From: a virus
Strand: one strand, 5' to 3'
IMG/VR virus record: IMGVR_UViG_3300005613_003651
Coordinates: 1 to 23,731 of that record
Length of the DNA: 23,731 bases
The stretch's first letter is position 1; each line of letters starts with the position of its first letter. Both the position numbers and the translations under genes were made by a program. A model generated the notes under the pieces. The model saw nothing but the letters and a program-made list of their open reading frames with translations. It searched no databases and was not told the origin of the DNA. Positions 4,173-23,119 of this stretch are shown piece after piece.

Positions 4173-5039
4173 ATGGAAAATGATTATAAAAACCGGAGAA
4201 TAATCTGGTTGGCTAGTTATCCCAAGTCTGGAAATACTTGGGTGAGAATGTTTGTCAATGCTTATATTAGTGGTTTTTCAATAAATCTTAACTCTGCTTT
4301 TCAATTTGCAACTTCTGATGTACTTCCGTATGCATATCAGAGAGTATGTGATTGTAAAATATCAGATTTAGATCATACGTGGATGCCCTATATAAGATTT
4401 GCTGCATTGGCAAATATGCTAATTAGGAGTCATACCAGAGATATTTGTCTAAAAACACATTTTGCAAAGCTAAGTGGAAATGGAATTCCACTTATACCTA
4501 AAGAACTTTCTAGATGTGCTTTATATATTGTCAGAGACCCAAGAGATTTAGTCTGTTCTTTAGCTAGTTATATGAATAAGTCTATAGATCAAGCTATAGA
4601 AATGATGGCAGATGAAAAAGTAGGTATAAAAAATAATGAGGAGGGTTTACATCAGTTTATGTCTTCATGGTCTATACATGTTGATTCTTGGACTGTAAAC
4701 AATGAGGAGATACCTACAGAAGTAATTCGATATGAAGATATGGTACTATATACTAAAGATACTTTTGAACTTATATTACGTGCTTTAGGCATTGAGACTA
4801 TAATAGAGGATAAGTTTAATTTTGCTTTAGAAGAGACCTGTTTTGATAATCTTAGGAGAAAAGAAGATAAGACAGGTTTTAGAGAGCAACGAGGAAAAGG
4901 AAAGTTCTTTCGTAAAGGAAAGATAGGGGCATGGAAAGAAGAATTAACGGATTCACAAGTACGATCTATAGAAGAAACTCATAGAGAAACTATGGATCGT
5001 TTTGCATATTTTGAGATACCAGAATTGGTACAAGTATAG
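4173..5039 (+). CDS. PAPS-dependent sulfotransferase (Sulfotransfer_1 type)
   Basis: A 288-residue protein with the full set of cytosolic-type sulfotransferase motifs. The 5'-phosphosulfate loop is YPKSGNTWVR (16-25). A KTH triplet at 94-96 places His96 as the likely catalytic base. The 3'-phosphate site is YIVRDPRDLVCSLASY (118-133) with Arg121 and Ser129. The C-terminal nucleotide-binding motif is RKGKIGAWKEEL (247-258). Such enzymes transfer sulfate from PAPS to a hydroxyl or amine of a small molecule, glycan or other acceptor. All key residues appear intact and length is normal for the family, so the enzyme is probably active. The acceptor cannot be predicted. The gene begins one base after the previous stop with no clear Shine-Dalgarno, so it may depend on upstream translation. 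It sits among virion genes, as an accessory insertion would. Confidence 0.93.
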   Translation: MENDYKNRRIIWLASYPKSGNTWVRMFVNAYISGFSINLNSAFQFATSDVLPYAYQRVCDCKISDLDHTWMPYIRFAALANMLIRSHTRDICLKTHFAKLSGNGIPLIPKELSRCALYIVRDPRDLVCSLASYMNKSIDQAIEMMADEKVGIKNNEEGLHQFMSSWSIHVDSWTVNNEEIPTEVIRYEDMVLYTKDTFELILRALGIETIIEDKFNFALEETCFDNLRRKEDKTGFREQRGKGKFFRKGKIGAWKEELTDSQVRSIEETHRETMDRFAYFEIPELVQV

Positions 5040-5449: not shown

Positions 5450-7363
5450 ATGCCTCTGAAAGATTTATCAACTCGATTAGCGGCTACAGGCAGTCAGCAC
5501 ATCGACATGACCCAGCCGCTGAACGTGTTTCATCCGTTGGCGGATGGGCTGGTTGGGTTGTGGCTGCCAGTGCCACAACTTATGGGAGGCAACAAGTGGA
5601 TCGATTTGTCGTGCTATGGCAATGATGGTGTGCTGACCGGCATGGATGCGACTGCATGGAGAGCGCAAAGCCAGGTTAATGGGTTTGGTAGTCTGGAATT
5701 CTTTGGAGTCGGTTTGGCGGATAGCGTGCAGACTCCGAATTCGCTTACGGGCGCGGTAAGCAAATACTCGGTGGCTGCGTGGGTATATGCGGATGAATAT
5801 GACGCCACCACCAACAGGCTCAGCGCAATTGTAGACAACAGTATTACAACAGGCTCTGGTTTTCGGTTCGGTGTGCTTAATGATGCGAGCACGTTTAAGT
5901 TAAAGTTACAGAATAACTACGCATTTCTGTCACCTGGAGCTGTAGACCCTGATGCGTTGCCTACAGGACAATGGAATTTTGTTGCAGGTACTAGTGAGCA
6001 CTCAGGTAGCAACGCCACGATTTCAGCATACGTAAATGGCGTGTTGAAAAACACCCAGGCAGCCGCAGATGATTACGTATGCAACGCGTTAAACATAGCA
6101 TTTGGCGACAGGCCAACCGGTTCTGGTTCCTCGATTATAGAGTGGGATGGGAAGATCGCCATGGTGGCGATTTGGAAGCACCGTGCCCTCTCACCCGACG
6201 ACGTACGAGCACTCTACCAAGAGTCCCTAGCCGGCTACCCAACGCTGCTGAATCGCGGTAGTCGAAGAGTATTATCGACAGTAAGTGGAGGGGAAGAAAG
6301 TACAAGTAGTAGTTCTTTAACTTCTTCCAGTTCTAGTAGTTCTCTTACAAGTAGTTCAAGTAGTTCAAGTTCTTTAACTTCTTCCAGTTCTAGTACTAGT
6401 TCAACTTCTAGTACTAGTTCAACTTCTAGTACTTCGTCTAGTAGTAGTTCTTTAACTTCTTCCAGTTCTAGTACTAGTTCAACTTCTAGTACGAGTTCTC
6501 CTAGCAGTCAATCAGGAGAATCTACTTCTAGTTCCAGCAGTAGTTTAACAAGTTCCAGTTCTAGTACTAGTTCAACTTCTAGTACTAGTTCAGCTTCTAG
6601 TACTTCGTCTAGTTCTAGTTCTTTAACTTCTTCCAGTTCTAGTACTAGTTCAACTTCTAGTACTTCTTCACAGTCTAGTACTTCTAGTTCTAGTAGTTCT
6701 TTAACTTCCTCTTCAAGTTCAACTTCTAGTACCAGTTCTACTAGTAGTACTTCGTCTAGTAGCAGTTCTTTAACTTCTTCCAGTTCTAGTACTAGTTCAA
6801 CTTCTAGTACGAGTTCAACTTCTAGTACTTCGTCTAGTAGTAGTTCTTTAACTTCTTCCAGTTCTAGTACTAGTTCAACTTCTAGTACGAGTTCAACTTC
6901 TAGTACTAGTTCTCCTAGTAGTCAATCAGGAGAATCTACTTCTTCTAGTTCCAGTTCATTAACATCTTCATCTAGTTCACCATTTAGTATTTCTTCTGCT
7001 AGTAGTATAAGTCATGTCAGTAGTGGTAGTGAAGGCAGTATTGCTAGTGAAGGCAGTATTGCTCCTGGACCAGAAGAAACTTCTTCTTCTAGTACACCAT
7101 TCAGTACTTCCTCTACTTCCAGTTCTAGCAGTTCTTTAACAAGTTCTAGTAGTTCTGCTAGTAGCACATCTTCTAGTTCTAGTTCACTTACAAGCTCCAG
7201 TAGTTCATTAACTAGTAGTAGTTCATCTACAAGTTCATCTACAAGTTCTTCTAGTGTTGGACCTAAATTCCCTTATGGAAAAACAATAACAAAAGTTGGT
7301 ATAAGTTCTTCTACAATTACTAAAGTAGGTGCTGTTGGTAAGACAATAGCCATTCCTGTATAA
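5450..7363 (+). CDS. LamG-domain virion protein with long serine-rich region
   Basis: A 637-residue protein in three parts. Residues about 25-270 form a concanavalin A/LamG-like jelly roll: LADGLVGLWLP, the cue YGNDGVLTG (56-64), SKYSVAAWVYAD, QWNFVAGTSE, ISAYVNGVLK and the closing segment WDGKIAMVAIWKHRALSPD. These domains bind carbohydrate or act as display modules on virions. Residues 284-602 are almost entirely Ser with Thr and Leu, in repeats such as SSSLTSSSSSTSSTSS. The last 35 residues are a non-Ser tail in which ITKVG occurs twice. The start directly follows the previous stop without a Shine-Dalgarno. The LamG part is clearly GC-richer than the Ser-rich part and neighbours, so the gene looks like a fusion of modules. 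A fibre or head-decoration role is likely, but unproven. Confidence 0.8.
   Translation: MPLKDLSTRLAATGSQHIDMTQPLNVFHPLADGLVGLWLPVPQLMGGNKWIDLSCYGNDGVLTGMDATAWRAQSQVNGFGSLEFFGVGLADSVQTPNSLTGAVSKYSVAAWVYADEYDATTNRLSAIVDNSITTGSGFRFGVLNDASTFKLKLQNNYAFLSPGAVDPDALPTGQWNFVAGTSEHSGSNATISAYVNGVLKNTQAAADDYVCNALNIAFGDRPTGSGSSIIEWDGKIAMVAIWKHRALSPDDVRALYQESLAGYPTLLNRGSRRVLSTVSGGEESTSSSSLTSSSSSSSLTSSSSSSSSLTSSSSSTSSTSSTSSTSSTSSSSSSLTSSSSSTSSTSSTSSPSSQSGESTSSSSSSLTSSSSSTSSTSSTSSASSTSSSSSSLTSSSSSTSSTSSTSSQSSTSSSSSSLTSSSSSTSSTSSTSSTSSSSSSLTSSSSSTSSTSSTSSTSSTSSSSSSLTSSSSSTSSTSSTSSTSSTSSPSSQSGESTSSSSSSLTSSSSSPFSISSASSISHVSSGSEGSIASEGSIAPGPEETSSSSTPFSTSSTSSSSSSLTSSSSSASSTSSSSSSLTSSSSSLTSSSSSTSSSTSSSSVGPKFPYGKTITKVGISSSTITKVGAVGKTIAIPV
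6299..7255 (+). repeat. serine-codon tandem repeat tract
   Basis: A low-complexity coding tract of about 957 bases built from Ser codons of both families (AGT/AGC and TCT/TCA/TCC) with Thr, and Leu at intervals. Larger duplications are visible. The unit reading SPSSQSGEST starts at 6497 and again at 6911, each followed by a similar Ser block. EGSIA is doubled near 7030-7065. Because AGY and TCN codons cannot interchange by one substitution, the mixed units suggest expansion by recombination of mixed blocks together with selection for Ser. Confidence 0.9.
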
Positions 7364-8554: not shown

Positions 8555-9280
8555 TTGTTACCAATAAGATTTCGTATTCATCTTACCTATAGATGTAATT
8601 TGAATTGTGAATATTGTGTACAGTTCGTAGACAAATTAAAATATGATGAAGATACTGACATTACAATACGTGATTTAGTAGATAGTGCCAGAATATTAAA
8701 GTTTTATAATATTCAAATTAGTTTGTTACGCATAACTGGAGGAGAACCTACATTACATCCCTTATTGAAAGAATGTTGTGAAGTTATAGCAAATAAATGG
8801 GAAAGCCATTTAAATGTAGTATTTTCTAATGGACAAATACCAGTACAAAAAATAAAAGGAATGCATTATTCTATTTCTGAAATTGGGGACATTAAAAAAG
8901 TAAATCATAAACCTCCTATGATTTCTCCTTTTGATTTAGGAATAGAACCAGTATTTGGTTTTACAATACCTTGTACTCAAATGAACAGATGTGGAAGGTT
9001 GTTTGATACATATGGATTTTCGTATTGTGCTAGTGCTGGTAGTATTGGAAGATTAATTGGTATAGATCCTTATCATTCTAAACCAGTTATGTTAGGAATA
9101 CCAGAAATGTGCCAGCATTGTCCTTGGTCTTTATCAAAAAGTGTACGAGTAGATTTAGCAGAAAAAGTAAAAGAAGGAAAGATAAAATATCCTACAAATA
9201 CATATAGAGAAGGATTAGAGAGACAATTAGATGATCCCTTTTTTTTCAAGAAATTTATAGATAGAACGAATAATAATTAG
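8555..9280 (+). CDS. radical SAM protein with extra C-terminal Cys cluster
   Basis: A 241-residue protein with the radical SAM cluster motif CNLNCEYC (Cys14, Cys18, Cys21), which binds a 4Fe-4S centre, and TGGEPTLHP (61-69), the GGE motif for S-adenosylmethionine. The C-terminal part has Cys140, Cys146, Cys158, Cys186 and Cys189 (IPCTQMNRCGRLF, SYCASAG, MCQHCPW). This spacing suggests a second iron-sulfur site of SPASM/twitch type, common in enzymes modifying peptides or complex substrates. The start appears to be TTG 8555 with GTAGG upstream (8544-8548); no ATG precedes the Cys motif. The gene is very AT-rich (17 of 60 bases G+C at 8641-8700) and separates two head-tail joining genes, so it looks like an inserted accessory gene. 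Product unknown: epimerisation, methylthiolation or crosslinking are all possible. Confidence 0.88.
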   Translation: MLPIRFRIHLTYRCNLNCEYCVQFVDKLKYDEDTDITIRDLVDSARILKFYNIQISLLRITGGEPTLHPLLKECCEVIANKWESHLNVVFSNGQIPVQKIKGMHYSISEIGDIKKVNHKPPMISPFDLGIEPVFGFTIPCTQMNRCGRLFDTYGFSYCASAGSIGRLIGIDPYHSKPVMLGIPEMCQHCPWSLSKSVRVDLAEKVKEGKIKYPTNTYREGLERQLDDPFFFKKFIDRTNNN

Positions 9281-10849: not shown

Positions 10850-12412
10850 ATGGACGCATTAACAGCCGCATTAGATAGAGTTAATGCTGTAGCTAATACA
10901 GCTAATAAAACTGCTTTGTCTATGAAGCAAACAGGTATTATATCTAACGAAATTTCTCCTAGTTCCTTTTCCAATTTCAGTTTTGGACAGGAAAGAATGG
11001 GAGATAATTTTAGATATAGTCTATTTCGTGGTTGGCTTTATTCGGCTGTTAATGCGTTGGCTTGTGAGGCAGCAGGACAGCCTGTTAATGTAGGGAAGTT
11101 TATAAAGTCTGAAGAGAATTATAATAGGGAAGAGAGAAGAGGAATTTCTTCTAGAAAGTCATTTTATTTAAGTAAAATGACTAATTCTATGCGGTCTAAA
11201 TCTATAGAGCATGGGATTGAAGTAACAAACAACAATCCTTTGTACTATGCTTTGGAAAAGCCTAATTCTATTCAACATAGATGGCAATTTGTTTACACAT
11301 TTGTTGCTAATTTGAATATTACTGGATGGGCTTACATTGTTGCTGATATAGACAGTGAAGGGAATCCAGAGTTCTATTCAATACCTACAACTTGGATTAC
11401 TCCCGTACATAAAAAAGGTAAAGCTTTTGCAGAATTCAAAATAAAGAATCCTAATGAGGCTGGAGAAGGGAAAACACTTAGTAGGGAAAATGTAGCTTTT
11501 GCTCATTTACCTAATCCCAGTGATCCTTTGCTCAGTGGATTAGCTCCTTCTACTTCTCAAATTCTTGCTATTCGTGTAGATGATCATATTCAAACGTCTC
11601 AAGAGAGATTCTTTGAGAATGGAGTATTTCCTAGTGTTATTGTAACTGTAGGTAAAGATCCTCATCCTGATGTTGCTAGTGGGATACGTCCTAGACTTAC
11701 AGGAGAACAACGTAGACAAATTACTGGGGCTATTAGGAAAACAATGTCTGGAGTTACTAATTATGGTAATCCGGCCATTGTGGATGGTTTAATAGAGAAA
11801 ATAGAAAGGCTGTCAGCTACTCAGAACGAAATGGGATGGGAAAAGTCTGAGGATGCTGTAATGGACCGCATTCTTAGTGCTTTTAGTGTCCCTCCCTTTA
11901 TTTTAGGTAAAGCTTTACCTGGTAGTTATTCTCAAGCTTATGTAACTAGGGAGATATTCTGTCAGAGAGTTAATACATTCTTAGACATGCTTAGTACAGT
12001 AATGACTAACTTTGTCAATCTAAGGATGCCTGAGAGTGATGATGTATTAGTTTGGTGGGAAAAAAGTAATCCTGTTGATCCTTCTATTAGATCGAAAGAG
12101 ATTATAGAAGCTAGGAAGTTGCACGATATTACTCAGGATGAATATAGAGCCCATTTAGGATTACCTCCTGCTGAAGAAGAGGAAAAGCGTAGTAAGTTCT
12201 TTGATAGCCCTGCTAGCATGCGTAGTGTGCATGAGTTACTTTCCAAAGTGACTTTGGGTGAAATTTCTGCTGATTCTGCATCTCAAATACTTTCATTGTT
12301 TTTTGAAATTCCTTTGGAAGACGCAAATAATATAGTGGGTAGTACACAAGAAAATCAGTTAATACAAGAAAGTGTACGCATGCTAGAAGAAATTACTAAC
12401 CGTTTAAATTAA
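10850..12412 (+). CDS. portal protein, HK97 family
   Basis: A 520-residue protein with the build of HK97-type portal proteins, which form the dodecameric ring for DNA entry and exit. Early motif: FRGWLYSAVNALACEAAGQP, corresponding to the V..av..ia..ia..p segment. Middle: PLYYALEKPNSIQHRWQFVY, LNITGWAYIVADIDSEGNPE, then PNPSDPLLSGLAPSTSQ, equivalent to the h.......GlSpl signature. Later: ERFFENGVFPSVIVTV (the ...f..NGa.p.g.l pattern), FSVPPFILGKALPGSYSQAY, with the clip/crown-region signature vPp.llG......y, and a final DEYRAHLGLPPAEEE. Length is typical or slightly long. The start is ATG 10850, six bases after the previous stop. The terminase genes usually found just upstream are not there. 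Confidence 0.9.
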   Translation: MDALTAALDRVNAVANTANKTALSMKQTGIISNEISPSSFSNFSFGQERMGDNFRYSLFRGWLYSAVNALACEAAGQPVNVGKFIKSEENYNREERRGISSRKSFYLSKMTNSMRSKSIEHGIEVTNNNPLYYALEKPNSIQHRWQFVYTFVANLNITGWAYIVADIDSEGNPEFYSIPTTWITPVHKKGKAFAEFKIKNPNEAGEGKTLSRENVAFAHLPNPSDPLLSGLAPSTSQILAIRVDDHIQTSQERFFENGVFPSVIVTVGKDPHPDVASGIRPRLTGEQRRQITGAIRKTMSGVTNYGNPAIVDGLIEKIERLSATQNEMGWEKSEDAVMDRILSAFSVPPFILGKALPGSYSQAYVTREIFCQRVNTFLDMLSTVMTNFVNLRMPESDDVLVWWEKSNPVDPSIRSKEIIEARKLHDITQDEYRAHLGLPPAEEEEKRSKFFDSPASMRSVHELLSKVTLGEISADSASQILSLFFEIPLEDANNIVGSTQENQLIQESVRMLEEITNRLN

Positions 12413-13433: not shown

Positions 13434-13509
13434 TAGTTTTGCTATTGCCTAACATTTCAATTTAGTATATAGTTACAAAACAACAACGTCTAGGTGTTCC
13501 AGCGGCGAG

Positions 13510-13566
13510 ACCGCGACGTACTTGTAGCCCCCAAAAAGGGCACTTGTACTTCGCGGTTTTTCTTTT
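13510..13566 (+). terminator. structured terminator in the 13434-13578 gap
   Basis: ACCGCGA (13510-13516) pairs with TCGCGGT (13551-13557). Inside, GTAC pairs with GTAC and GCCC with GGGC around a loop of CCAAAAA, and TTTTTCTTTT follows. This is a strong intrinsic terminator signature, probably ending transcripts of the portal gene group. The inner part, with GCC..CA.AAAGG and a later TTGTACTT, loosely resembles the core of the elements at 18573-18606 and 22249-22282. The rest of this 145-base gap shows nothing certain. Confidence 0.7.
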
Positions 13567-13578
13567 GGAGTTTGTAAA

Positions 13579-14322
13579 ATGCGAAATGTAACTTTTTATC
13601 TTGGTCCTGCAAATGGTCTTGCTCAACGTGTTTTGCAGATCCGTCAAATATCAGTAGCAGGACAGGATACAGCTCCAGCTTTAGCAGTTAATGTAACTTT
13701 GGGTGCTGTAGCTAATACAACTCAGGCATTGGCTGATGGGTTAATGTGGCAGGCTATATTGACAGACACTACTGCAACTGGTGCAGTGTCTAGTCCTCAG
13801 ATACTTAATTTCCATACAGGTTTCTTGCAATTTCCTGGTCCTGAAAGTTTAGATGATAGTACTTTCTTCCGTATTTTACATATGGAAGATTTGTCATCTA
13901 GTAGTTCCAGTTCTAGTAGTAGTTCTCCGTCCAGCTCCAGCTGGTCTAGTAAGAGCAGTTCTTCCAGTTCTTCCAATTCTAGTAGTTCTAGTAGTTCTAG
14001 TAGTAGTTCTGCTACTAGTAGTAGTAGTTCTGTAACTAGCAGTAGTTCTGTAACTAGTAGTTCTAGTAGCAGTTCTGTAACTAGTAGTTCTAGTAGTAGT
14101 TCTGTAACTAGTAGTTCTAGTAGTGAAAGCAGTTCTAGTACTAGTAGTTCTAGTACTTCTAGTAGTTCTGTAACTAGTAGTTCTAGTTCTGTTACGAGTT
14201 CTAGTAGTTCTGTAACTAGTAGTAGCAGTCAAAGCAGTTCCAGTAGTTCTGTAACTAGTAGTTCTAGTAGTGAAAGCAGTTCTAGCAGTAAGAGTTCTAG
14301 TAGTTGGTCTACCCAATCCTAA
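13579..14322 (+). CDS. virion protein with beta domain and serine-rich tail
   Basis: A 247-residue protein with TTGGAG (13566-13571) before ATG 13579. Residues 1-105 are a small beta-rich domain (NVTFYLGPANGLAQRVLQI, LAVNVTLGAVANTTQALAD, QAILTDTTATGAVSSPQI) of a kind seen in phage appendage or decoration proteins. Residues 106-247 are nearly pure Ser with VT, E, W and K spacers (SSSSVTSSSSSVTSSS). The tail contains SPSSSSWSS and ends with SSSWSTQS; both features recur in the protein at 20160. It is probably exposed on the particle, where the poly-Ser tail could be a flexible or modified appendage. It is the first gene after the terminator at 13510 and precedes the capsid genes. Confidence 0.7.
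   Translation: MRNVTFYLGPANGLAQRVLQIRQISVAGQDTAPALAVNVTLGAVANTTQALADGLMWQAILTDTTATGAVSSPQILNFHTGFLQFPGPESLDDSTFFRILHMEDLSSSSSSSSSSSPSSSSWSSKSSSSSSSNSSSSSSSSSSSATSSSSSVTSSSSVTSSSSSSSVTSSSSSSSVTSSSSSESSSSTSSSSTSSSSVTSSSSSVTSSSSSVTSSSSQSSSSSSVTSSSSSESSSSSKSSSSWSTQS
13894..14319 (+). repeat. serine-codon repeat tract
   Basis: The coding tract for residues 106-247 consists mainly of TCTAGT/AGTAGT units with periodic GTAACT (Val-Thr) codons. It shares the block encoding SPSSSSWSS (near 13921) with the protein at 20160. The reverse strand is therefore also open over this span, giving a Thr/Arg-rich shadow frame that is not a gene. Confidence 0.9.
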
Positions 14323-18548: not shown

Positions 18549-18634
18549 ACCCTACCGCCGGTTTTCCTACGTCACTACGCCTGCATAAAGGCTTTGTATT
18601 TGTGACTGAATCCTTTCCCGGCGGTAGGGTTTTT
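18549..18634 (+). terminator. large structured terminator after the capsid gene
   Basis: ACCCTACCGCCGG (18549-18561) and CCGGCGGTAGGGT (18618-18630) form a perfect 13-bp GC-rich stem followed by TTTTT. The 56 bases between them are not a simple loop. GTCAC (18571-18575) pairs with GTGAC (18602-18606), and inside that GCCT (18579-18582) can pair with AGGC (18589-18592). The result is a branched or extended RNA of over 80 bases. It probably ends or stabilises the capsid mRNA. Bases 18573-18606 recur at 22249-22282 with two changes. The rest of the 18535-18662 gap holds only the upstream region of the next gene. Confidence 0.8.
18573..18606 (+). repeat. 34-base intergenic core element, copy A
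   Basis: This core differs from the copy at 22249-22282 at only two of 34 positions. Its ends read CACTACGCCTGCATAAAGG and TTTGTATTTGTGAC. One difference (T instead of C in GCAYAAAGG) changes a C-G pair to U-G in a possible CAYAAA/TTTGTG helix, so pairing is kept. It lies within the terminator structure after the capsid gene. Confidence 0.75.
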
Positions 18635-18662
18635 ATCAATCTTTTAATACTGGAGAGAAGAA

Positions 18663-19262
18663 ATGGCTTCTGTTGCAGAGGAAAAGAAAACAACGGTATT
18701 TCCTTTCGCTATTGAATTTGATTCATGTTCTAATAGTGATTACAAACTTAACTCTTTGCCAGAGTATAAGTTTCGGAGTGCTTTAAAGACTCATAGAACA
18801 GTTATGGATAATGAGACTGGTGAGGAAGCTGTACCTGTGGATATGATACAGGGACTTAGCATGCTTCCTACAATCCCTGGGATGCAATTGCATGTAAATC
18901 CTACTGATCGTACTTTTGAGATTATTGATCCTTTGTGTGATCGACAGGATTTGACAGACAGAATTGCTAAGGTAATTAATAGTCAAGGTGCAATTCGGGC
19001 AGATAAGGGAGTACGAGGAGTTCCTACTGTTAAAGGGAATTTAGACGTACATAGGATGAAAACACTTTGTCGTGAAATGGTAATGCTTTTGGATGCTGGT
19101 GAGGCAGAACTAGTAAAGGGTGTTAAGCCCAGTCTTCAAGCCATTTCTAAATTGCCTGGAAAGTTCTTACTGAATCCTGGTAGTCAGATACAAAACAATC
19201 TTCCTAGATATGAGGAAGATTATGATGTTTGGCTTGAGAATTTGAAAAAGCATGGCGGTTAA
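18663..19262 (+). CDS. phage protein downstream of capsid, function unknown
   Basis: A 199-residue protein with GGAGAG (18652-18657) before ATG 18663. The sequence looks globular with PFAIEFDSCSNSDYKLNSL, MIQGLSMLPTIPGMQLHVN, the strand DRTFEIIDPLCDRQD, a helix VHRMKTLCREMVMLLD and a Pro-rich end (ISKLPGKFLLNPGSQIQ). I recognise no motif. In phages with this gene order, a head-completion or tail-joining protein is often found in this place, but the sequence gives no decisive cue. It overlaps the next gene by 11 bases. Confidence 0.65.
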   Translation: MASVAEEKKTTVFPFAIEFDSCSNSDYKLNSLPEYKFRSALKTHRTVMDNETGEEAVPVDMIQGLSMLPTIPGMQLHVNPTDRTFEIIDPLCDRQDLTDRIAKVINSQGAIRADKGVRGVPTVKGNLDVHRMKTLCREMVMLLDAGEAELVKGVKPSLQAISKLPGKFLLNPGSQIQNNLPRYEEDYDVWLENLKKHGG

Positions 19263-20159: not shown

Positions 20160-21077
20160 ATGCCTAGAAGCTTTGCAAGTGGACGAGTAAGGGTAACTTT
20201 ATCAGGTTCCCTTTCTAATACTTTGACCGATGGTTCTAGTACTTCAGTTTCTCACCCTTCTCTGGCTTACAGTAATGCTATTTCTAATGGGGTAAGTGCA
20301 GGTCAAGCAAATAGAGCTTGGCAATCTGTTAGTAGAACTTTAGGAAACGGAGCTACTGAAACTCTTGATTTGTTTGATATGGCTGGGGTGGATATTGGTG
20401 CTGGGGCTGGGTTAGATGGACTAGGACAGGATGTTTCTCCTTTTGAAGAAATTGTAACTATAGCTATTGTAAATAATAATGCTGTAGGAACTGCTGGACA
20501 GTTAGAAATAGAACCTGCTGGAGTTAATGGTTGGACTCCTATAGGTTCTCATACTGTTGCTAATGGTGGTGCATTAAGAGGACAGGGTATTTTACTCAAA
20601 TCACAACCTGCTGAGGCTGGATTTGATATAACTGATGGGGCTAGTAATCAAATTACCATAACTGCTACGGGTGGAGCAATAACTTACTCCATTTATCTTA
20701 TTGCTAGACATGATGATAACGAGTCTAGTAGTAGTTCTAGTAGTTCTAGTTCTAGTAGTTCTAGTAGTCAGAGTTCTAGTAGTTCTAGTAGCAGTAGTTC
20801 TAGTAGTAGTTCTCCTTCCAGTTCTAGCTGGTCTAGTTTAAGCAAGAGTTCTAGTAGTTCCAGTAGTTCTAGTAGTTCTGTAACCAGTTCTAGTAGTTCC
20901 AGTTCTGTGACTAGTAGTTCTAGTAGTAGTTCTGTGACTAGTAGTTCTAGTAGTGAAAGTAGTTCTAGTAGCTCTGCAACTAGTAGCTCTAGTAGTTCCA
21001 GTAGTAGTTCTATGACTAGTTCTCAGAGTGAAACTAGTGAACAGTCTAGTTCTACTTGGAGTACTGCATCAGTTTAA
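20160..21077 (+). CDS. virion protein with beta domain and serine-rich tail
   Basis: A 305-residue protein with the weak purine signal GTGAGAAA upstream of ATG 20160. Residues 1-187 are beta-rich with ETLDLFDMAGVDIGAG, EEIVTIAIVNNNAVGTAG, QLEIEPAG, ANGGALRGQGILLKSQPAEA and QITITATGGAITYSIYLIA. This matches a common phage structural type in which a Gly-rich block precedes a final V-T-Y-x-I strand. Residues 189-305 are Ser-rich with VT and E spacers. They contain SPSSSSWSS, as in the protein at 13579, and end STWSTASV. It sits between tail terminator and tail tube genes and so is likely part of the tail or a surface attachment. Function beyond that is unknown. Confidence 0.7.
   Translation: MPRSFASGRVRVTLSGSLSNTLTDGSSTSVSHPSLAYSNAISNGVSAGQANRAWQSVSRTLGNGATETLDLFDMAGVDIGAGAGLDGLGQDVSPFEEIVTIAIVNNNAVGTAGQLEIEPAGVNGWTPIGSHTVANGGALRGQGILLKSQPAEAGFDITDGASNQITITATGGAITYSIYLIARHDDNESSSSSSSSSSSSSSSQSSSSSSSSSSSSSSPSSSSWSSLSKSSSSSSSSSSSVTSSSSSSSVTSSSSSSSVTSSSSSESSSSSSATSSSSSSSSSSMTSSQSETSEQSSSTWSTASV
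20724..21074 (+). repeat. serine-codon repeat tract
   Basis: This tract encodes residues 189-305 and is made of AGT/TCT units with periodic GTAACC or GTGACT (Val-Thr). It shares the SPSSSSWSS block (near 20811) and repeated SSSSVTSSSS units with the tract at 13894-14319, so the two are homologous rather than independently formed low-complexity sequence. Confidence 0.9.
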
Positions 21078-22243: not shown

Positions 22244-22411
22244 CTAGCCACTATGCCTGCACAAAGGCTTTGTATTTGTGACGTCCTGTACTGGTTTTAC
22301 GTGTTTTGCTGCATTGGGAAATACAAGTTGTCTTGAGTTGTTTAATCGTTTTATGCTCCGAATAACTGTTTTGTATTAATTAAAACATATTTCCTTTTTG
22401 TTCTATAGCCT
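22244..22411 (+). other. intergenic gap with repeat element and possible promoter
   Basis: This 168-base gap, the largest in the window, holds no convincing gene. It starts with the 34-base core element at 22249-22282. Farther on, TTGTCT (22328-22333) and TATGCT (22352-22357) are 18 bases apart and could be a weak sigma70-like promoter for the sulfotransferase gene. The stretch just before the gene is AT-rich with no Shine-Dalgarno. I see no tRNA. Confidence 0.5.
22249..22282 (+). repeat. 34-base intergenic core element, copy B
   Basis: It is identical to 18573-18606 except for two positions (T for C after CACTA, and C for T in GCAYAAAGG). CACAAA (22259-22264, counting from the final C of GCCTGC) can pair with TTTGTG (22275-22280), and GCCT with AGGC nearby. 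The outer GC-rich stem and T-run of copy A are absent here, so it is not simply a terminator. Confidence 0.75.
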
Positions 22412-23119
22412 ATGTCCTACTTTCTTCCAGAATACAATACACTTTTTTTACATATACCAAGGACTGGTGGACATTGGATGCGAAGAGTTTTTATAGATTT
22501 TTATGATTTAGAACCTGATAGAAGTTATGGAAGACCTGTTTCGACTAAAGCTAGTATGCATATACCTGTATGTGATTATGAGCAAGAGGACATTGATAAA
22601 CTAAAACATATTATTTGTGGTGTTAGAAATCCTATAGGATATTATGAGTCTATATGGAGATGGTTTAAACGATCGAATCATTTTGGACGTTTAAAAACGA
22701 CTGGGAAGCCTAAGGTAAGACATAAGGGAAGACGGCACGCACTTGATAATATATCTTTTCATTACGATCCTGATTTCCAGATTTTTTTGGAGAGAACATT
22801 AGAATACAATTCTGGATGGATTACTAGTCTGTTTTCTCACTTTATATACAGAAAAGGGTTAATGTCTTGTGATTATATTTATAGGTTGGAAACTATATCA
22901 GATGATTTAAAATGGATTTCTTATCATATAGGTATGGGTGATATTTATGAAAATATAGTAAAGACAGGCGTAACAATAGATACCAGGAGAAGAAAGAATA
23001 GAAAAGGACTAGTGCCAAAGGTTAAATGGAAGAAAGAATGGAAAGAATTAATATATAATTCTGAACGTACAATATTTGACAAGTTTTATGGTGATATGGT
23101 ACATAAACTTTTAGATTAA
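22412..23119 (+). CDS. sulfotransferase family protein (HIPKTGG type)
   Basis: A 235-residue protein with the 5'-phosphosulfate loop in the form FLHIPRTGGHWMRR (12-25), as in the Golgi carbohydrate-type and bacterial sulfotransferases with HIPKTGGTS. The 3'-phosphate site is ICGVRNPIGYYESIWRWF (68-85), with Arg72 and Ser80. SMHIP (48-52) may supply further active-site residues. The rest is basic and aromatic (RLKTTGKPKVRHKGRRH) and lacks clear motifs. It shares no alignable sequence with the sulfotransferase at 4173 beyond the general cofactor sites, so two separate families are present. The acceptor is unknown; carbohydrate is common for this group. It has its own upstream gap and lies between tail-tube and chaperone-like genes, as an accessory gene would. 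Confidence 0.8.
   Translation: MSYFLPEYNTLFLHIPRTGGHWMRRVFIDFYDLEPDRSYGRPVSTKASMHIPVCDYEQEDIDKLKHIICGVRNPIGYYESIWRWFKRSNHFGRLKTTGKPKVRHKGRRHALDNISFHYDPDFQIFLERTLEYNSGWITSLFSHFIYRKGLMSCDYIYRLETISDDLKWISYHIGMGDIYENIVKTGVTIDTRRRKNRKGLVPKVKWKKEWKELIYNSERTIFDKFYGDMVHKLLD

Follow-up and report, generated by a model that had tools for sequence, protein, structure and literature searches.

The preQ1-II riboswitch and the rpsO and T4 gene 32 operators are pseudoknots that hide a Shine–Dalgarno sequence. Mobile regulatory cassettes of T4-type phages were reportedly described by Arbiol et al. in 2010, a study cited in PMC4177764. They combine a promoter with a stem-loop. The stoperators of cluster A mycobacteriophages are 13 bp long, occur in more than twenty copies per genome and have a known repressor (PMC9283540), and RNA anti-CRISPRs are solitary repeat units (PMC10651486). 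Here we compare these systems with noncoding elements of the window, by which we mean the whole of IMG/VR virus record IMGVR_UViG_3300005613_003651 (23,731 bases, positions 1 to 23,731), a stretch that contains portal, protease, capsid, neck and tail genes.

A preliminary description of the window had proposed a single structured element in three intergenic gaps. These are indeed the three largest gaps in the window (168, 145 and 128 bases), but the single element is three things: a lineage-specific repeat, an ancestral group-wide hairpin, and a promoter-leader-terminator at a position that we call site C. The repeat is real, and it leads to a conserved RNA element in relatives. Our main reading, to which we assign a probability of roughly 0.45, is that the repeated core, rather than being a folded RNA family, is a recognition site of ~31 bp dispersed within one lineage, and that its copy A sits in an older hairpin, the loop of which pairs as a pseudoknot in relatives.

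A Repeated Core in One Phage Lineage

A 34-base core at 18573-18606 had been reported to recur at 22249-22282 with two differences, in noncoding gaps both times, and this was confirmed; both of the 2 differences in 34 bases are C/T. At up to three mismatches only these two copies, A and B, match the core in the window, and none of 100 dinucleotide shuffles gave a match. A relaxed pattern scan of viral contigs (IMG/VR) recovered a third copy, D (TATGCCTGTACAAAGGCTTTGTATTTGTGAC), on a 42-kb sister contig, IMG/VR record IMGVR_UViG_3300005613_000135 (G001), at G001:15647-15677, which is the same as L029:1948-1978. Copy A (TACGCCTGCATAAAGGCTTTGTATTTGTGAC) at 18576-18606 and copy B at 22252-22282, both on the plus strand, have 31 positions in common with copy D, and the sequence common to the three is TAYGCCTGYAYAAAGGCTTTGTATTTGTGAC. 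Of these, 28 are identical in all three copies and the three variable ones are all C/T; copy D differs from copy B at only one of the 31. A position-weight scan of the window and G001 revealed no further stretch scoring near the three copies. All three are intergenic and co-oriented with transcription (the chance of co-orientation is 1 in 4), and a stop codon lies about 8-41 nt upstream of each. Copy B is 8 nt past the stop codon of a 77-aa ORF, and a sulfotransferase-like gene follows it at a distance of 130 nt; copy D is ~8 nt past the stop of a small ORF.

G001 encodes Ser-rich proteins and sulfotransferases of the same kinds as the window, and the genes of the two map to separate regions in one set of relatives (G005, G006, G007 and G010). 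The codon usage distance between window and G001 is 2.1, compared to 1.3-3.6 between halves of single contigs and at least 5 to other relatives. Gene order and codon usage therefore place G001 in the same phage lineage as the window. The two may be parts of one virus, or copy D may come from a virus other than that of the window. The sigma-like and glyco-region proteins of G001, used as queries, matched G001 alone. No phage-type single-subunit RNA polymerase (PF00940) was matched in seven records, in a search for which the control likewise matched nowhere.

Long serine-rich proteins (SSSSLTSSSSSTSSTSS) among the late genes are common to this phage group (window 5450-7363, 13579-14322 and 20160-21077, and the start of G001). 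The late region of the window also contains sulfotransferase and radical SAM genes (4173-5039, 8555-9280 and 22412-23119) and G001 has many genes that resemble glycosyl- and sulfotransferases, which suggests modification of surface sugars.

Outside this lineage the core was missing from 26 full relative records (up to three mismatches), from ~70 related capsid loci (only chance matches, at seven mismatches), from isolate phages (50,697 phage records) and from the plasmids searched. A relaxed pattern gave no intergenic match in 84,980 bacterial genomes, a collection that may not include the host. The only bacterial match (L031) falls within a coding gene and one viral match (L074) within a tail gene; neither is a core copy. 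Judged by its distribution within the records searched, the core is a lineage-specific dispersed repeat. For the site of a regulator, three is a small number of copies, and these could be recent duplicates under no selection. Restriction to one lineage and the low copy number would agree with neutral duplicates that lack any function; however, the near-identity of the core between unrelated flanks and the noncoding, co-oriented position of every copy make this very unlikely.

The near-invariance and intergenic position of the core would also agree with mimicry of a host CRISPR repeat, as a solitary repeat unit in the manner of RNA anti-CRISPRs, which are likewise short. With its GTCAC/GTGAC ends copy A is 36 nt long, the size and shape of a CRISPR repeat. 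In contrast to RNA anti-CRISPRs, the ends are not common to all copies, as the GTCAC end is missing in B and D, no promoter was predicted immediately ahead of A and B, and no CRISPR repeat or array with the core sequence was found with the relaxed pattern in the 84,980 genomes, among which the host is perhaps not included. We regard this explanation as extremely improbable.

Copies B and D sit in segments that are absent from relatives. At copy B, the sulfotransferase-like gene is inserted between genes that adjoin in G010, where it is missing at the corresponding position. Copy D has on one side an epimerase gene, inserted on the minus strand, and on the other a gene with sigma-70 region 2; its segment separates a 97-aa gene from the sigma-like gene, two close neighbors in G006. 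Since copy A, too, has been inserted, in its case into a loop (see section “A Hairpin After the Capsid Gene”), the core could be the border of mobile gene cassettes and provide short homology for module exchange, as has been proposed for the T4-type regulatory cassettes. Like the T4 cassettes, it is a short intergenic element at borders of exchanged genes. However, copy A adjoins no foreign gene, and the other inserted genes of the window (4173-5039 and 8555-9280) have no core. Moreover, no sigma-70-like promoter such as T4 cassettes carry beside their stem-loop was recognisable at copies A and B, and the stem around copy A is ancestral and lies outside the repeat. A role as cassette border is therefore doubtful.

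Folding and Coding Potential of the Core

A further alternative is a small structured RNA that would act within the transcript as a signal in processing, antitermination or stability, e.g., an H-type pseudoknot with stems GCC/GGC and CAYAAA/UUUGUG. The orientation of every copy with transcription is consistent with this, and so is the folding of copy A, which alone beats shuffled sequences (z -2.62); copies B (z 0.22) and D (z 0.09), however, fold no better than shuffles. The only hairpin common to the three copies is a 4-bp GCCU/AGGC hairpin, and the GTCAC/GTGAC stem of copy A is missing in B and D. The proposed one-sided change in a CAYAAA/TTTGTG helix is possible, as the C/T at 18578 in copy A can pair with G either way, and all three variable positions, being pyrimidines, could face G in a possible pseudoknot or UAY/GUA pairing. 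A stable core structure was not borne out by copies B and D, with z values near zero. Nor did a conserved core helix with compensating changes find support: among the three copies no pair has changed on both sides. Rfam gave no match to the core, even at permissive thresholds, in agreement with the earlier remark that no named RNA was known to match the element. Between the core and the region downstream of it, pairing was limited to a weak match at copy B (AAATACAA, p = 0.03), with none at A and D. Because B and D fold so weakly, recognition of the core by its sequence is likelier than a role as structured RNA; we consider the latter unlikely.

The motif TTTGTR occurs in the core twice in direct and once in inverted orientation, an arrangement that would be compatible both with a DNA-binding protein and with an RNA pseudoknot. 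The suggestion that the core binds a protein is a reasonable reading, and this noncoding element also recurs in a related genome. We also considered the core as coding sequence. Every copy has an open frame TAY-GCC-TGY-AYA-AAG-GCT-TTG-TAT-TTG-TGA, in which two of the three differences are synonymous, but the upstream sequences are unrelated and in copy D a stop lies just before the frame, so that this reading was rejected.

A Hairpin After the Capsid Gene

Copy A is enclosed by a perfect 13-bp stem followed by a T-run, as had been described. The 5′ arm (18549-18561) pairs with 18618-18630, and the 3′ arm with its T5 extends to 18634, all on the plus strand; the fold of this segment is much stronger than those of shuffled sequences (z -5.45). 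With a stable GC-rich stem directly before a T-run, the hairpin has the makeup of an intrinsic terminator. It was not listed by a terminator scan that allows loops of 3-8 nt, and its loop of 56 nt (18562-18617, plus strand), which holds the core, is unusually long. The ribosome-binding region (18648-18662, plus strand) of the next head gene (18663-19262) shows no significant pairing with this loop (p = 0.53), and in general loop-downstream pairing was not detectable in the window, since 52 of 300 shuffles were equally good.

Nearly every relative has a strong hairpin after the capsid stop codon, and because the position is so widely conserved, the hairpin that holds core A in its loop is ancestral. 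The loop in relatives is mostly 10-25 nt, compared to 56 nt in the window, and its complement occurs at one to three sites immediately upstream of the next gene. The loop is often GTTCTTC and the partner GAAGAAC. More than a dozen versions of loop and partner exist, and each loop matches its own partner, among others TTTGTTCTTCG with CGAAGAACAAA in L003, TCTCGTTCTTC with GAAGAACGAGA in L004, TTCCTCGGA with TCCGAGGAA in L006, TGTCTCCTT with AAGGAGACA in L082 and L085, CTGTTCTCC with GGAGAACAG in L100, CCTGGTCCTTC with GAAGGACCAGG in L101, GGTTCTTTG with CAAAGAACC in L104, and TTTTCCGTCCT with AGGACGGAAAA in L141. The covarying hairpin stands directly after the capsid gene in all of these loci and in L008, L015, L107 and others. 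A search for more copies and covariation had been proposed earlier; it yielded a third core copy in a related genome, and covariation not in the core but in this hairpin of the relatives.

In 40 non-redundant relatives the longest complement between loop and partner averaged 7.75 nt, compared to 5.65 ± 0.22 nt with partners permuted, and none of 5000 permutations reached this value; nine loci were set aside, in which the automatic stem choice was wrong and had in several cases taken the loop-partner helix itself. With an automatic choice of start codons, a few of which were placed too early, a pairing site of at least 6 nt was found in 34 of 41 relatives and two or more sites in 22. As a raw count, the partner reaches the region 4-16 nt before the start codon in 27 of the 41. 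Pairing loops are nearly confined to the post-capsid position and rare elsewhere (40 strong hairpins, 30 loci). A general dispersal of GTTCTTC/GAAGAAC in the relatives was rejected, as this motif is hardly present in other gaps. In L018 (6346-6460) an HNH-like gene separates the capsid gene from the next gene, and the hairpin stays with the displaced next gene, with its pairing loop GGTTCTTC and the partner GAAGAACATGAAGAACC before the ATG. L015 has a second hairpin (11905-11972) with the loop CGTTTCTC, and the complementary GAGAAACG stands immediately ahead of the ATG of a different gene; going by this complementarity, it is probably the same device at another gene boundary.

Complementarity is thus kept across sequence change in the relatives, and the same pairing was not found in the window. 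As far as can be judged from sequence, the hairpin in relatives fits a loop-to-Shine–Dalgarno pseudoknot that would control the gene after the capsid gene. At the Rfam gathering threshold there was no family for the window or for 11 relatives, and we found no description of such a post-capsid element in the literature other than subscription papers. We know of no named RNA family for the relatives' hairpin, and to our knowledge its layout over a ribosome-binding site has not been described. The element looks like an undescribed regulatory RNA.

Proposed Roles of Core and Hairpin

If the core is a recognition site, each copy would be retained through a putative sequence-reading factor that acts on transcription or on the passing transcript. 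By analogy with the mycobacteriophage stoperators, this factor would most likely be a phage-encoded DNA- or RNA-binding regulator. Copy A is lodged inside the loop of the older hairpin. In relatives, this loop would pair as a pseudoknot with sites before the next gene and so limit translation of the gene after capsid; in the window lineage, the core would have displaced the pairing loop. A more specific version has the loop pair alternately with two or three tandem sites that reach the ribosome-binding region and thereby set the ratio of two head proteins. In the window lineage the loop would then have been swapped for a 31-bp regulator site that also acts elsewhere in the genome, and control by RNA pairing would have passed to a trans-acting factor. 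We hold this version to be rather speculative.

Phages need to make capsid and neighboring head proteins at a set ratio from a single transcript. A hairpin with a partner maintained across more than a dozen versions would be a direct, testable answer to this for one phage group, and the hairpin of the relatives is a candidate new RNA family to annotate. The core marks the place where post-capsid control seems to have been rewired, and it can serve as a tag for finding the factor that reads it.

A Separate Leader Element at Site C

The preliminary description regarded 13510-13566 as a looser relative of the core. Its alignment to the core is at chance level (p = 0.15), with a local score of 18 vs. 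14.7 ± 2.5 for shuffled sequences and up to 20 for other gaps of G001, and this stretch belongs to a different conserved leader element. It is a terminator-like hairpin (ACCGCGA/TCGCGGT) with a T-run before a Ser-rich gene and is not a core copy. Upstream, also on the plus strand, are a sigma-70-like promoter (TTGCCT-17-TATAGT, 13445-13473), which is a consensus match only, with about one such match expected by chance, and a leader motif (CGTCTAGGTGTTC, 13487-13499) that recurs at the same position in many relatives. At this position in relatives, the ribosome-binding site of the Ser-rich gene is preceded by sequence resembling a promoter, by a leader motif close to CGTCYAGGYGYYC and by a GC-rich hairpin and T-run. 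On this conserved arrangement, site C is apparently a separate promoter-leader-terminator of its own kind. In the window (13445-13566) and in relatives, the CGTC of the leader can pair with GACG/GGCG in the hairpin arm. This pairing might act like an attenuator or antitermination leader.

Other noncoding repeats were seen in relative G010. A promoter-like repeat (GTGGTAAGATAGTTGGTG) is present at 694-789, 56754-56811 and 83456-83560, where conservation extends past the -10 box on its downstream side, and G010:68473-69627 contains tandem-like repeats (GGTAAGGATTTTTAACTTCCAAGCAAACAAATGAGG) within long noncoding stretches.

Comparison With Known Systems

The post-capsid hairpin resembles an intrinsic terminator in its GC-rich stem after the capsid gene and, in the window, its T5. 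It differs in that the T-run is poor in many relatives and in that the loop has a conserved pairing partner. With the known Shine–Dalgarno pseudoknots, the hairpin of the relatives would share a loop or pseudoknot acting on the ribosome-binding region of the next gene. Unlike them, it lies between two genes, after capsid, often has its partner in two or three tandem copies, and has a pairing sequence that varies freely among phages yet stays complementary.

Like stoperators, the three copies of the core are dispersed, asymmetric and in short intergenic spaces; they also follow the direction of transcription, as so few copies would by chance in 1 of 4 cases. It is longer (~31 bp), has three known copies and its regulator is only putative. 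Still, if it is indeed a recognition site, we propose that the core would work most like a stoperator.
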